From: Gemmatimonadota bacterium
Lineage (GTDB): Bacteria; Gemmatimonadota; Gemmatimonadetes; Gemmatimonadales; GWC2-71-9
Direction: 5' to 3'
Assembly (NCBI GenBank): GCA_016874005.1
Contig: VGVQ01000025.1
Span: 1 to 45,346, forward strand
DNA length: 45,346 nt
The notes under the pieces were generated by a model. The model saw nothing but the letters and a program-made list of their open reading frames with translations, was not told the origin of the DNA and made no database searches. The position numbers and the translations under genes are program-made. Numbering within the stretch: the first letter of the stretch is position 1; each line of letters begins with the position of its first letter. Below, in pieces: positions 33,338-38,863 of this stretch.

Positions 33338-33823
33338 GTGGTCCGGGTGACGGTGGCGCAGCTCGCGGTCGATCGGAACACCAACACCCCGGTGGTCGTG
33401 CTCCAGGACGAAAGCGGCGAGCGCACGCTGCCCATCTTCATCGGGTCGGCGGAGGCCGCCGCGATCGCCATCGAGCTTAGGGGCGACGCGCCGTCTCGCC
33501 CGATGACCCACGACCTGCTCAAGTCGTTGCTGCTGGGGCTAGGCGGTGAGCTTCGCCGGGTGTACATCGCGGGGCTCAAGGACAACACTTACTACGCCCA
33601 ACTCGTGATTGGCCGGGGGTCCGATTTGTTCGAGGTCGATGCCCGGCCCTCGGACAGCATCGCCCTGGCCCTCCGAACCCGGTCGCCGATCTTCGTTCAC
33701 GACGATCTCTTCGACAACGGTGCCGGCGAGGTGGCGCCGCCGGAGCCGCCGGCCGGGGCGGAAGCGCTGCGGCAATTCCTCTCCAAGCTCAATCCCGAAG
33801 ACTTGGGTCGTTTTCACCCGTGA
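33338..33823 (+). CDS. Bifunctional nuclease (DUF151/BFN) domain protein
   Basis: Protein of 161 residues with the BFN (DUF151) domain: VTVAQLAVDRNTNTPVVVLQDESGERTLPIFIGSAEAAAIAIEL, PMTHDLLKSLLLGLGGELRRVYIAGLKDNTYYAQLVI, and VDARPSDSIALALRTRSPIFV, the three conserved blocks in order. Some family members have DNase/RNase activity; many are uncharacterised. GTG start with GAGG six bases upstream, 15 bp after metK. The C-terminus is a short acidic-Pro linker and helix. The stop overlaps the next gene by 4 bp. Confidence 0.88.
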   Translation: MVRVTVAQLAVDRNTNTPVVVLQDESGERTLPIFIGSAEAAAIAIELRGDAPSRPMTHDLLKSLLLGLGGELRRVYIAGLKDNTYYAQLVIGRGSDLFEVDARPSDSIALALRTRSPIFVHDDLFDNGAGEVAPPEPPAGAEALRQFLSKLNPEDLGRFHP

Positions 33824-34914
33824 TCACCTGGCTGGTGGCGCTCGCCGCCGCCGGGGCGAGCGTGACGCAACCACCGGGGCGCGCTGGCGGCACGGTGCGG
33901 CGGCCGGCACCCGACGGCGGGACGATCCCGGTTCCCGCGGTGCGGGTGGTGCTCCACAAAGTCGGTCGAGCCACCCAGGGGCCGGTGGATTCCGCGGTGA
34001 CGGATCCCGCCGGTCGGTTCCGCTTTCGATTCACCGGTGATAGCACCGCGAGCTTCCTGGTCAGTGCCCGATTCGCGGGGATCGAATATTTCTCCACCCC
34101 GTTGGCGACCAACCCAGCCCGCCCAGACACCGCGATCGCGCTGATCGTCTACGATACTAGCGCCGCGGTCGCGGTCGGCACCCGCAGCCGCACCCTGATC
34201 GTCGCCGCCCCGGATGCGGTCGGCGCCAGAACGGTCATCGATTGGCTGGTGATCTCGAACCGGGGCCGGGCCACCCGCGTCGGCGTGGACAGTCTCGGGG
34301 GCACCTGGTCGGCCGTCCTTCCGATCGGGGCTCGCAATCCACAACTCGGCGACCCGCGGCTGTCGCAGATCTCTCCCGAGGCGGTGGCATTTCGGGGTGA
34401 CTCGGTCGTGGTGACGGCGCCGATCGCGCCGGGAGACAAGGAGCTGCTGCTCCAGTACGAGTTGCCGGCCAGCCGGCCGAAGTTGGAGCTCGACCTCGCG
34501 GCGATCGACTCGGTCGACCTCTTCCTCGAGGAGACCGCGACCGCCGCCCCTCCCGGCTGGGCGGTCAGCGATTCGCAGGCATTCGAGGGGCGGCGCTTCC
34601 GGCGCCTAACGAAGGGGCAGGGCGCCGGCCCGTCCCTGGCGCTCCGCTTTCCGGGGATGGGCCTGGCGCCGGAGCGAGTCCTCCCAGGCCTGGTGGGTCT
34701 GGTCGCGCTGGGCCTCACCCTGCTGGGCTGGCGGTTGCTGAGCCGGCCGGCGAACCAGCGGGTGGACGACCCGGTAGCCCTGGCCGATCAGATCGTCGCA
34801 GTTGACCGGCAGCTCGAGGTTCCCGGCGCCGATCGGGACGCGTTGATGGCGGAGCGGGCGGGAGCGCTCAGCCGCCTCCGCGACGCCCTTGCCGCCTCGG
34901 ACCGGCGGTCCTAA
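33820..34914 (+). CDS. Unknown protein with Ig-like N-terminal domain and C-terminal membrane anchor
   Basis: Protein of 364 residues with a short N-terminal signal-like stretch (MITWLVALAAAGASV). Next is a beta-rich domain in which IPVPAVRVVLHKVG...DSAVTDPAGRFRFRFTGDS resembles a carboxypeptidase-regulatory-like domain. A second soluble region follows (residues about 115-280). A single hydrophobic helix comes at about 290-310 (VLPGLVGLVALGLTLLGWRLL). A roughly 50-residue charged tail completes it. This gives one predicted C-terminal anchor with the bulk outside the cytoplasm. No catalytic motif. GTG start in a GTGA overlap with the BFN gene. The predicted B12-operon promoter overlaps its last codons. 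Function unknown. Confidence 0.7.
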   Translation: MITWLVALAAAGASVTQPPGRAGGTVRRPAPDGGTIPVPAVRVVLHKVGRATQGPVDSAVTDPAGRFRFRFTGDSTASFLVSARFAGIEYFSTPLATNPARPDTAIALIVYDTSAAVAVGTRSRTLIVAAPDAVGARTVIDWLVISNRGRATRVGVDSLGGTWSAVLPIGARNPQLGDPRLSQISPEAVAFRGDSVVVTAPIAPGDKELLLQYELPASRPKLELDLAAIDSVDLFLEETATAAPPGWAVSDSQAFEGRRFRRLTKGQGAGPSLALRFPGMGLAPERVLPGLVGLVALGLTLLGWRLLSRPANQRVDDPVALADQIVAVDRQLEVPGADRDALMAERAGALSRLRDALAASDRRS

Positions 34915-34943: not shown

Positions 34944-35077
34944 GGTCGAAGCACTCGGAAGCCGGTGTGATTCCGGCGCGGCCCCGCCACTGTGATGGGC
35001 ACTCAAGTCCGCTCTCGTAGCCACTGGGAAACCGGGAAGGCGAGCGAACTGCCCGAAGCCAGGAGACCTCTTCGATC
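34944..35077 (+). promoter_or_regulatory. Cobalamin riboswitch
   Basis: Adenosylcobalamin-type riboswitch. Landmarks in order: the GCCGGTGTGATTCCGGCGCG hairpin region (34961-34980), GCCCCGCCACTGTGATGGG (34981-34999), the CCACTGGGAAACCGGGAAGG segment (35021-35040), and the B12 box AGCCAGGAGACCTC (35057-35070). The closing P1 stem is GGTCGAAG (34944-34951) with CTTCGATC (35070-35077), eight pairs including one G-U. It lies in the 196-bp gap before btuF, in the right orientation. With B12 bound, expression of the operon is expected to fall, as in the family. Confidence 0.93.
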
Positions 35078-35110: not shown

Positions 35111-35992
35111 GTGGTCACTGGTCGTTCACTCGGTATCGCGGCAACCGCCGCGCTGTTGGCCTGTCGAGCATCGCCGCCCGGCCGCGCTCCGGGCGGCATC
35201 GAGCTCGTCGACGATCGAGGGGCGATCACCCGGCTCGAACGGCCCGCGACCCGGGTCGTCTCCCTGATACCCGCCGCGACCGAGTTGGTCTTTGCCATCG
35301 GAGCCGGCGATGCCCTGGTCGGCCGAACCCGATGGTGTGACTATCCGGCCGAGGCGCGGCAAGTACCCTCCGTGGGCGACGGAATCGGGCCGAACGTCGA
35401 AGCCGTGGTGGCGGCCCGCCCGGATCTCGTCTTGATGTACTCGAGCCCGAGCAACGTGGCGGCGACCTCGACGCTGCGCGGTCTCGGTGTCCCGGTTCTC
35501 GAACTCGTCATCGACCGATATGCCGATTTTCGCCGCGGGCTTCGGCTGGTGGCGACCGCCGTCGGACGCGAGGCGGCCGGCGACAGCGTGGCTCGCGCGA
35601 CCGAAACGGCCGTCGCCGAGGCGTCGGTCGTCGAGGCAACCCGACCAACCGTCCTGATCGTGGCCTGGACCGATCCGCCGATGACCATCGGCGGGGCCAG
35701 CTTCCTCGACGAGATCCTCGACCGGGCCGGAGCCCGCAACCTGTTCGCCGACGTCGATCGCCCGTCGTTCCCGGTGTCGCTCGAGGCCGTCGCGGCCCGT
35801 AACCCGGACTGGGTGCTGGTGGTCGACGACCTGAACCCCGAGTTCGTCGACAGCCCGTCCTGGCAGGCGATCGCCGCGGTGCGCGAACGCCGCTTCGTCC
35901 GGGTGAGCGGCTCGATGTTCAACCGGCCCAGCCCTCGCATGGGGCAGGCCATCACCACCCTCCGGGCCGCGCTGCGACGAGGCGACCGGTGA
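35111..35992 (+). CDS. btuF: Cobalamin-binding lipoprotein of ABC transporter (BtuF-like)
   Basis: Periplasmic-facing binding protein of 293 residues with a signal peptide and lipobox LLAC (Cys18), so membrane-anchored rather than free. It has the class III binding-protein fold: RVVSLIPAATELVFAIGAGDALVGRTRWCDYPAEA, where the CDYP segment is a BtuF hallmark, VEAVVAARPDLVLMYSS, and a C-terminal domain ending PSPRMGQAITTLRAAL. The GTG start sits directly behind the sequestering hairpin and B12 riboswitch, supporting cobalamin as the ligand. GTGA overlap with the permease gene. Confidence 0.92.
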   Translation: MVTGRSLGIAATAALLACRASPPGRAPGGIELVDDRGAITRLERPATRVVSLIPAATELVFAIGAGDALVGRTRWCDYPAEARQVPSVGDGIGPNVEAVVAARPDLVLMYSSPSNVAATSTLRGLGVPVLELVIDRYADFRRGLRLVATAVGREAAGDSVARATETAVAEASVVEATRPTVLIVAWTDPPMTIGGASFLDEILDRAGARNLFADVDRPSFPVSLEAVAARNPDWVLVVDDLNPEFVDSPSWQAIAAVRERRFVRVSGSMFNRPSPRMGQAITTLRAALRRGDR

Positions 35993-36954
35993 AGCATCTG
36001 GCGCTGGTGGTCGCCGCCCTGGTCGCGATGGCGATCGGGATCGCGGCCGGCGCCGCCGCCCTGCCAAGCGCTGATGTCTGGCGCGGCCTGGTCGACCCAG
36101 CCTCGCCAGCCGGCCCGATCGTCTGGCAGCTGCGGTTGCCCCGAGTGTTGCTGGCGTTTCTGGTCGGGGGCGCCTTGGGACTGTCTGGCACCGCCCTCCA
36201 GGCGATGATCCGCAATCCGCTCGCGGAGCCGTATCTGCTCGGGATCAGTGGCGGGGCGGGACTGGGTGCCGTCCTGGCCATTTCGCTCGGGCTGGGCGGG
36301 GTCGGCGTGATCCCCGCGGCCGCGTTGGTCGGTGCCCTGGTCGTCTCGGCCGCGGTGTATTGGGTCGCCACCATTCGCGGAAGCCGGCTCGAGCCCCGGA
36401 TTCTGGTGCTCGTCGGGGTGGTGTTCGCGGCCCTGTGCGGTGCGCTCATCTCGGCCCTGCTCGCCCTCTCCGAAGCCGCCCAGCTTCGCAATGCCTTCCT
36501 CTGGCTGCTCGGCGGGTTCGGGAATGCCGACTGGCCGGCGGTGTCATCGTTCGCCCTCTATGGCGCCCTGCCCGCCGTCCTCGTCGTCGCCATGGCCAGC
36601 CGACTCGACGTCCTCTCGCTCGGTGACGAGACGGCCCACGGATTGGGCGTCGACATCGTCGCGACTCGCCGGCTGGTCTACGGCGCGACGGCACTGCTGA
36701 CCGCGGCCAGCGTCGCCGTCAGCGGCATGATCGGCTTCGTCGGCCTGATCGTGCCGCATGCCATGCGTGGCTTCGTCGGCCCGATCCACCGGCGGCTCCT
36801 GCCGGCGGTGTTCGTCGCGGCCGGCGGGCTCCTGGTGCTCGCCGATGTCGTGGCTCGCACGGTGATGCGTCCGGCCGAGTTGCCGATCGGGACCATCACG
36901 GCGTTGCTTGGCGTCCCGATGTTCGCCGTTCTGTTGCGCCGGAGCCTGCGCTGA
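35989..36954 (+). CDS. btuC: Cobalamin ABC transporter permease (BtuC-like)
   Basis: FecCD-family inner-membrane permease of 321 residues with about ten hydrophobic helices. Key segments: LRLPRVLLAFLVGGALGLSGTALQAMIRNPLAEPYLLGISGGAG, the helix-loop that contacts the binding protein and ATPase, and MIGFVGLIVPHAMRGFVGPIHRRLLP near the end. Works as a dimer with BtuD. The permease family alone does not separate B12 from iron-siderophore transport; the riboswitch and BtuF decide it. Overlaps btuD by 1 bp (TGATG). Confidence 0.93.
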   Translation: MKHLALVVAALVAMAIGIAAGAAALPSADVWRGLVDPASPAGPIVWQLRLPRVLLAFLVGGALGLSGTALQAMIRNPLAEPYLLGISGGAGLGAVLAISLGLGGVGVIPAAALVGALVVSAAVYWVATIRGSRLEPRILVLVGVVFAALCGALISALLALSEAAQLRNAFLWLLGGFGNADWPAVSSFALYGALPAVLVVAMASRLDVLSLGDETAHGLGVDIVATRRLVYGATALLTAASVAVSGMIGFVGLIVPHAMRGFVGPIHRRLLPAVFVAAGGLLVLADVVARTVMRPAELPIGTITALLGVPMFAVLLRRSLR

Positions 36955-37769
36955 TGCTGGTCGCCTCCGACCTCACGGTCCGTTACCGCGAAGCGCCTTC
37001 CCGTGCCCTCGAAGGTGTCGACCTCGCCGTTTCAGCAGGTGAGGTACTCTGCCTGGTGGGGCCGAACGGGAGCGGAAAGACGACCTTGGCGCGGGCCCTG
37101 CTCGGGCTGGTCGGGGCCGAACGCGGCCAGGTCGTGCTCGATGGGCGACCGGTGAAAGCCTGGCGGGCCGCCGAACGCGCCAAGCGGATCGGGATCCTGC
37201 CCCAGCGGGAGGAACTGCCCTTCAGCTGGCGGGTGGACGAGGTGGTCGGTTTCGGCCGCTACGCCTGGATGCCTCCGTTGGCGTCCCTCGGCCGCCGCGA
37301 CCGGGAGATCATCGAGCGGTCGATGGAGCGGGCCGACGTCTTGACCCTGGCGCAGCGCCGGGTGGATACCCTCTCGGGCGGCGAGTGGCAGCGGGTTCGC
37401 ATCGCGAGAGCGCTGGCCCAGGAGCCGGCAGTGCTGGTATTGGACGAGCCAACCGCGGCGCTCGACCTCGGTCATGAGATGGAGATCTTCGAGTTGATCC
37501 GGACCCTGGTGCGGGATGGCCTGGCGACCGTGGTTGTGACCCACCAGCTCAACCTCGCCGCCCGGTTTGCCGATCGAATGATCCTCCTCGAACGGGGTCG
37601 GGTCGCGGCCGCTGGCCCGCCGATGGAAGTCATGGAGGCGGCTTTGCTCGAGCGCGTCTTCGGTTGGCCCGTGATCATCTCTACCCTCGCCGATGGCACC
37701 CCGCAGTTCAGCCCGGAACGGGGCACGGCGGGAAGGCCCCGGACGTTGCCGCCCGAGGCTGCCCGCTGA
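36954..37769 (+). CDS. btuD: Cobalamin ABC transporter ATPase (BtuD-like)
   Basis: ATP-binding subunit of 271 residues. Walker A is GPNGSGKT, the signature is LSGGEWQRVRIARAL, Walker B is VLVLDEPTAALD, and the switch His is in TVVVTHQLN. About 20 residues beyond the core form a variable tail. It drives B12 import through BtuC. Coupled to btuC by a one-base overlap. The beta-propeller lipoprotein gene starts 14 bp downstream. Confidence 0.94.
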   Translation: MLVASDLTVRYREAPSRALEGVDLAVSAGEVLCLVGPNGSGKTTLARALLGLVGAERGQVVLDGRPVKAWRAAERAKRIGILPQREELPFSWRVDEVVGFGRYAWMPPLASLGRRDREIIERSMERADVLTLAQRRVDTLSGGEWQRVRIARALAQEPAVLVLDEPTAALDLGHEMEIFELIRTLVRDGLATVVVTHQLNLAARFADRMILLERGRVAAAGPPMEVMEAALLERVFGWPVIISTLADGTPQFSPERGTAGRPRTLPPEAAR

Positions 37770-37783
37770 TATTGTTCGCCGCG

Positions 37784-38863
37784 ATGGAGCGCATGTTTCG
37801 GGGTTCGTTCGCGGCGGTGCTCGGGTGGGTGCTCGGTGGTTGCGCGGCGACGACCGCGCCGAGCCCGCCGCCGGCCGAGCGCCTCGTCATCCTCAACGCT
37901 GGCGATAACACCCTCACCGTCGTTCCGGTCGACACCACGGAGCCGGCCCGGCTCATTCCGGTGGCTCTCGGGGCGCCTGCCACCGCCGTGGCGGCGCGGC
38001 GGGACATTGCGGTTGTGGCCGGCGGCACCGCCGACGAAGTCGTGGTGGTCAGCTTGGTCGCGGGCCAGGTCTTCCGGCGCATCGCGCTCCCCCCGGGGAG
38101 CCGACCGGCGGCGGTGGTAATGCTCTCGGATCGAATCGGCTTCACCGCCAACGCCGGTCGCAACGTCGTGACCCGCTTCGACGTCGCGACTGGCGACACG
38201 GTGAGTGTGGCGGCCGGACAGTTTCCCCGCGACCTCGTCCTCGCCCGGGGGCGTCTCTTCGTCGTCAACGGGAACGTCGAACCGTGTCAGGCCGGAACCT
38301 GCTCACTCGGACCGAGCTGGCTGACGGTCATCGATCCGCTCACGACCACGCGGGCCTCGGGGGTAGACTCCATCGCCATGCCCGCGCAGGGCAATGCTCG
38401 GCGGGCGGTTCTCGGGGCCGACGGCCTCATCTACGTGGTGAATACCGGCGACGTCGCGACCCCGACGGCGGGCCGGCTGACGATCGTCGATCCGGTCCAA
38501 CGCCAGGAGGTCGGGAGCTTCGGCGGTTTTGGTTTCTTGCCGGTGGCGGTCGCGACCGACCGAGGCGAACGGCTCTACGTGGGATCGACCAGCGACGGGC
38601 TGATGGAGTTCAATACCAGGACCCGGCGGGTCGTCCGAGGGGCCGGCGAGGGCGTCGCGATCAGCAATGCGGTCGCGGTGGCGGTTGACGGGCGCGGACG
38701 GATCTACGCGATCGAGGCCGGTAGCTGCGCGCCGGGGAGCCGCGGCCGGCTGCGGATCTACCGAACGGATCTCACCGAGGCCCGAGGCGTCGAGGTTGGT
38801 TCCTGTCCGGTGGCCGCGACCTTCGTTCAACTCGCGGAGTCCGATCCGGGCACCAGTCCCTAA
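37784..38863 (+). CDS. YncE-like beta-propeller lipoprotein in the cobalamin operon (BtuG-like candidate)
   Basis: Protein of 359 residues with a signal peptide and lipobox VLGGC (Cys20; Cys17 if the ATG at 37793 is used). The mature part is built of about seven beta-propeller blades, each with a strand pattern such as RLVILNAGDNTLTVVPVD, IGFTANAGRNVVTRFDVATG, IYVVNTGD and LYVGSTSDGLMEFNTRTRRV. Four Cys residues (EPCQAGTC, AGSC, VGSC) could form disulfides. Such YVTN/YncE propellers have no fixed function. Placement 14 bp after btuD, under the B12 riboswitch, suggests a role in B12 capture. In Bacteroides the surface lipoprotein BtuG is a beta-propeller that binds B12 very tightly; the similarity here is of fold and context only, and homology is not shown. 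Confidence 0.75.
   Translation: MERMFRGSFAAVLGWVLGGCAATTAPSPPPAERLVILNAGDNTLTVVPVDTTEPARLIPVALGAPATAVAARRDIAVVAGGTADEVVVVSLVAGQVFRRIALPPGSRPAAVVMLSDRIGFTANAGRNVVTRFDVATGDTVSVAAGQFPRDLVLARGRLFVVNGNVEPCQAGTCSLGPSWLTVIDPLTTTRASGVDSIAMPAQGNARRAVLGADGLIYVVNTGDVATPTAGRLTIVDPVQRQEVGSFGGFGFLPVAVATDRGERLYVGSTSDGLMEFNTRTRRVVRGAGEGVAISNAVAVAVDGRGRIYAIEAGSCAPGSRGRLRIYRTDLTEARGVEVGSCPVAATFVQLAESDPGTSP

Follow-up and report, generated by a model that had tools for sequence, protein, structure and literature searches.

The locus described here raises the question of whether a beta-propeller lipoprotein, encoded at the end of a B12-uptake operon in a Gemmatimonadota genome, may act in the manner of BtuG, the surface lipoprotein that captures vitamin B12 for the outer-membrane receptor BtuB in Bacteroides. 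The window, that is, the whole 45,346-nucleotide stretch of DNA that was analyzed, is one contig of a 3.88-Mb genome that is 97% complete. CbiC, a marker of corrin-ring synthesis, was not found in this genome, which encodes four proteins with B12-binding domains; both observations agree with a published account of the phylum, in which cultured Gemmatimonadota require B12 and pathways for its de novo synthesis are absent (PMC10581226). A published search with a BlastP cut-off detected no homologs of BtuG outside Bacteroidetes (PMC6143338), and lipoprotein-capped receptors have been called apparently exclusive to Bacteroidetes (PMC10404256). The B12-binding DUF4465 lipoproteins show that capture proteins occur beyond Bacteroidota (PMC13398666). 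A search of the open-access literature gave no paper describing a BtuG-like protein from Gemmatimonadota and none dealing with YncE in B12 loci. The first-pass annotation of this DNA had supposed a phylum distant from that of Bacteroides, which overstates the separation: NCBI taxonomy places Gemmatimonadota within the FCB group, which also includes Bacteroidota, and the two are thus less remote than was assumed.

Organization of the operon

The operon is headed by a cobalamin riboswitch aptamer at 34957-35067 on the plus strand (Rfam RF00174, 72.5 bits, E 4.4e-16), followed on the same strand by btuF, encoding the corrinoid-binding protein (35111-35992; Peripla_BP_2, PF01497, 6.1e-29; NCBIfam BtuF model, 1.2e-26), btuC, encoding the permease (35989-36954; FecCD, PF01032, 2.4e-83; NCBIfam BtuC models, 9e-67), and btuD, encoding the ATPase (36954-37769; ABC_tran, PF00005, 2.1e-32; corrinoid ABC transporter ATPase model, 7.3e-69). 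The ends of these three genes overlap by a few bases, and vitamin B12 BtuF and BtuC models are among the top NCBIfam matches for the transporter proteins. After a gap of 14 bp comes the gene for a 359-aa protein, which runs on the plus strand from ATG (37784) to TAA (38863) and begins with a signal peptide, MERMFRGSFAAVLGWVLGGC, and the lipobox LGGC (37784-37843, plus strand; Cys20 is codon 37841-37843). Lipobox, AlphaFold2 fold, Foldseek matches and conserved B12-uptake context together mark it as a BtuG-like, seven-bladed beta-propeller lipoprotein. The order riboswitch-btuF-btuC-btuD-lipoprotein, as first annotated, is borne out by these matches. The gene recO lies 29 bp downstream of the propeller gene, a position that it also holds in relatives of the same family. 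Scanning of the operon region gave no internal promoter, and terminators were no more frequent than expected by chance. The N-terminal region of the window BtuF (35111-35170) carries a lipobox-like sequence, LLAC, so that BtuF may be a lipoprotein as well. Directly upstream of the riboswitch, a position kept in most same-family relatives, lies a gene (33820-34914) whose 364-aa product, a protein of unknown function, contains a weak carboxypeptidase-regulatory-like stretch.

The first-pass annotation had noted that the window holds no TonB-dependent BtuB, and none is encoded on its contig; how B12 would cross the outer membrane had therefore been a puzzle. Two cobalamin riboswitches scored above threshold in the genome, and the second (contig C1, 22731-22861; 71.4 bits) lies directly upstream of a gene for a TonB-dependent receptor. 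The best NCBIfam model for this receptor is the B12 receptor TIGR01779, at 202 bits and thus below its equivalog cut-off of 599.7, and its best PDB match is E. coli BtuB (8.8e-34). Judged by its sequence, the receptor is a riboswitch-controlled BtuB, with which the puzzle of outer-membrane crossing dissolves. Its orthologs in five genomes of the same genus, at 48-53% identity, each lie directly behind a riboswitch of their own, and other genomes with split loci likewise encode BtuB elsewhere, either immediately after an RF00174 riboswitch of its own or one gene further on; in two fragmented MAGs with split loci (G061 and G063) a second riboswitch was not found. The predicted control elements thus keep the split loci co-regulated through separate cobalamin riboswitches. 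In the window's genome the ORF after btuB carries an SSGKDA motif fused to DUF1289, and at L082:6369-7986, at similar loci of genus g17 and at L060:6837-7694, the genes between btuB and the propeller encode a further BtuF-like protein and an ATPase of the Diphthami_syn_2 family (PF01902). A PP-loop ATPase may be part of corrinoid uptake or salvage.

Genomic context in relatives

Homologs of the propeller were collected by sequence homology alone, at order and phylum level, and wide flanking regions were compared; those relatives that carry an organism name are Gemmatimonadota MAGs. Of 60 loci mapped, the 54 with more than 2.5 kb upstream form the counted set, and in every one of these the propeller gene lies within a B12-uptake locus, so that the link to B12 uptake seen in the window holds among its relatives. 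A TonB-dependent receptor is encoded just upstream of the propeller in 43 of the 54 loci, a count made up of 38 found by script (at most 2.5 kb upstream) and five found by resolving ORF overlaps (L094, L103, L106, L109 and L111), in which the receptor adjoins the propeller but overlaps an open frame and was missed by the script; the receptor of L071 was read individually. The gene directly upstream is btuD, as in the window, in ten loci, and in the remaining one (L118) btuFCD comes after the propeller. An upstream riboswitch motif was found in 42/54 loci, which is a lower bound, as the pattern used was a simple one. The gene orders encountered are riboswitch-btuFCD-btuB-propeller, riboswitch-btuB-propeller without btuFCD, and split loci. 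For all six receptors tested the best NCBIfam match is the B12 receptor TIGR01779; the nearest PDB match is B. theta BtuB1 for the receptor of L104 and E. coli BtuB for that of L096. From these gene orders and the predominance of the receptor as neighbor, btuB looks to be the ancestral neighbor of the propeller gene and the arrangement in the window a derived, split state. Plasmid searches by tblastn gave no match. The only propeller among the genome-contig hits that is attributed to a “Bacteroidetes bacterium” (L135, JAHEEH010000353.1) was rejected as binning contamination, being 100% identical to a Gemmatimonadota MAG protein from the same series (L134). Two divergent propeller genes stand in tandem behind a BtuB-type receptor at L103:7992-10243 and L106:2060-4314, and several riboswitch loci, mostly of genus g4 (L073, L074, L075, L076, L078, L099 and L100), start at btuC-btuD with no recognized btuF at the start.

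Predicted structure and sequence features

The AlphaFold2 model of the window propeller (pLDDT 91.3) comprises seven four-stranded blades, closed by N- and C-terminal strands. The likeness to BtuG that had been supposed is recovered by Foldseek, where ranks 1-14 are all BtuG (BtuG1/2/3, 3DSM), making 14 of the best 15 matches, with a best E of 3.7e-16, whereas for one control YVTN propeller from Gemmatimonadota, modeled in the same way, the list starts with 1L0Q and includes no BtuG in the top 50. However, VIA-align Z scores for BtuG (30-33) fall inside the range of generic propellers (36.9 for 1L0Q), so that the distinction rests on the Foldseek combined score together with that one control. 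A search of a viral fold library with the window propeller returned generic propellers only.

At the level of sequence, Pfam gave no family above cut-off for the window propeller and a single chance match below it, while NCBIfam gave a weak match to TIGR03866 (8.6e-5); the description of the blades as YncE-like is thus only loosely right. The propeller has no match to DUF5074, the Pfam family matched by Bacteroidota BtuG homologs, 4/5 of which pass its cut-off among those tested; within the Gemmatimonadota family, DUF5074 matches 3/31 homologs at E up to 0.01. A PDB search with the window propeller as a single sequence gave no match. The lipobox Cys is invariant across the homologs in an alignment (A1) for which homolog starts were picked with the lipobox in view. 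The Bacteroidota-type acidic lipoprotein export signal is absent after the Cys of the window propeller, where AATTA stands, and many relatives have at least one acidic residue following the lipobox Cys. This signal is a Bacteroidota feature that may not apply in Gemmatimonadota, and its absence is weak evidence because the SusD-like proteins of the same genome likewise have no classical export signal following Cys. The strong negative charge of BtuG2 is described as drawing in B12 (PMC10404256); the mature window propeller has a net charge of +1 vs -19 for BtuG2, so that electrostatic capture as in BtuG2 cannot be assumed, and several of its class-level relatives stand at -19 to -32. For the corrinoid contacts of BtuG2 (Trp194, Trp272, Tyr316 and Tyr335), an alignment of 16% identity shows no clear aromatic counterparts in the window propeller, and in a test of ligand-face conservation the top-face loops were no more conserved than the bottom loops (p 0.41). 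Since Pfam match, negative charge and export signal are all wanting, the window propeller is not to be filed as BtuG proper.

Ancestry of the propeller family

In a profile comparison, the propeller family matched BtuG at E 4.8e-29 and the YVTN controls at 1.6e-27, and the BtuG model scores the YVTN controls higher than it does the propeller family. A profile-profile match to BtuG (99.5%) was therefore set aside as proof of membership, since the YVTN controls score alike, and profile similarity is read here as a sign of superfamily kinship only. A family-profile search of a supposed Bacteroidota class returned mostly btuB-adjacent BtuG homologs and was not counted, as it may mirror the abundance of BtuG there. 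A maximum-likelihood tree was built from 29 rows of the Gemmatimonadota family and 23 BtuG rows; its outgroups were 1L0Q and hydrazine synthase beta. The Gemmatimonadota family and BtuG each form one clade and are sisters with support of 100/99, a grouping with long stems that invite artefact, and the Gemmatimonadota YVTN controls form a separate group.

It is possible, if somewhat doubtful, that the same function has a separate ancestry, a YVTN-type propeller having been recruited by Gemmatimonadota independently of BtuG; this concerns descent only and overlaps with a role of the propeller in B12 capture. Such recruitment would be consistent with the equal profile similarity to the YVTN controls, with the absence of the BtuG2 charge and of clear equivalents to its contact residues, and with the AU test, which does not reject the grouping of the family with its nearest YVTN group (p 0.079). 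However, that constraint costs 15 log units relative to the well-supported BtuG sisterhood, and Foldseek puts BtuG first for the window propeller and not for the YVTN control. Common descent with BtuG is thus favored by the tree, though not proven, given the p value of 0.079 for the alternative.

Discussion

Taken as a whole, the data make a role of the propeller gene in B12 uptake very probable. Because relatives almost always encode the propeller beside the B12 importer, it is most likely a BtuG-like capture lid, predicted to bind corrinoids and to be exposed at the surface. In the reading that we prefer, the window propeller is probably an outer-membrane, BtuG-like lipoprotein that works with BtuB in corrinoid uptake. 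What the first-pass annotation proposed is well supported as far as a BtuG-like propeller lipoprotein in B12 uptake is concerned, by virtue of the context in 54/54 loci and of the BtuG-specific Foldseek ranking with its negative control; this support does not extend to membership of the BtuG family proper. A model can be constructed in which low B12 would lead the two cobalamin riboswitches to release expression of btuFCD and the propeller from the window and of btuB from contig C1, presumably in this direction of control. The propeller would then capture corrinoids at the cell surface and, in a putative complex, pass them to BtuB, which would import them with TonB energy, and BtuF together with BtuCD would carry them into the cell.

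A counterpoint to the lid reading is the likeness of this genome's BtuB to that of E. coli, a receptor that operates with no lid. The same genome holds seven SusC-SusD type pairs, in which a SusD homolog is encoded ~1.6-1.8 kb downstream of a SusC-like receptor (contigs C2, C3, C4, C11, C13 and C40); going by these pairs, lidded receptors seem to exist in Gemmatimonadota, and a lid on a receptor is thus feasible there. An accessory lipoprotein that faces the periplasm, taking corrinoid from BtuB or docking BtuF at the outer membrane, is an unlikely account of the propeller, although it would suit the place of the gene in the window's genus (immediately after btuD, with btuB elsewhere), the net charge near zero, the missing export signal, and a BtuB of a type that requires no lid. 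Against it, the partner gene across the class is mostly a BtuB-type receptor and not btuF, BtuG is the closest Foldseek match, and the SusD-like proteins of the genome share the missing signal. That the propeller is a generic lipoprotein with an unrelated role, co-transcribed by chance, is highly improbable, for although propellers have many functions and corrinoid binding is a prediction, the linkage to B12 genes holds in 54/54 loci, in several families, through rearranged orders, and with or without btuFCD.

If the propeller is a lid for BtuB, it may be proposed, tentatively and with the balance still leaning toward doubt, that lid-assisted B12 import is not an invention of Bacteroidota, the BtuB-propeller pair either predating the split between Gemmatimonadota and Bacteroidota or having passed between them. 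Along the lineage of the window, the gene for the lid would have come to lie apart from btuB and the lid, without an acidic capture face, would act in trans, with two riboswitches keeping the loci in step. If several Gemmatimonadota families pair a BtuG-like lipoprotein with BtuB, the strategy would reach beyond Bacteroidota and the gut, and its age would become testable. The differing charges and operon layouts would provide a natural series in which to ask which features a B12 lid needs. A likely protein is also named for the uptake route in a phylum reported to need B12 without synthesizing it.

Comparison with known systems

The closest known counterparts are BtuG1/2/3 of Bacteroides thetaiotaomicron (PMC6143338, PMC10404256; 3DSM, 8BMY, 8OKV, 8BLW), which share with the window propeller the seven-bladed lipoprotein architecture, the placement in cobalamin-riboswitch loci, a gene next to btuB in most relatives, the top Foldseek ranks and the sister position in the tree. 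Unlike them, the window propeller, at ~16% identity, has no DUF5074, no negative net charge, no Bacteroidota export signal and no recognizable contact aromatics, belongs to a different phylum, and comes from a genus with btuB in a separate riboswitch locus. Propellers of the YVTN/YncE type (the archaeal surface-layer protein 1L0Q and E. coli YncE) have the same fold and repeat type and comparable profile similarity, but in the tree the Gemmatimonadota controls of this type stand apart as a group of their own, and their Foldseek ranking is different. With the SusD lids of SusCD transporters, pairs of which are present in the genome, the propeller would share the role of lipoprotein partner to a TonB-dependent receptor, whereas SusD lids have a helical, TPR-like fold and glycan substrates. 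Finally, BtuH and the DUF4465 protein BtuJ are likewise lipoproteins encoded in B12-uptake loci (PMC8941943, PMC13398666), but they are built of other domains and not of a propeller, and BtuG1 combines both.
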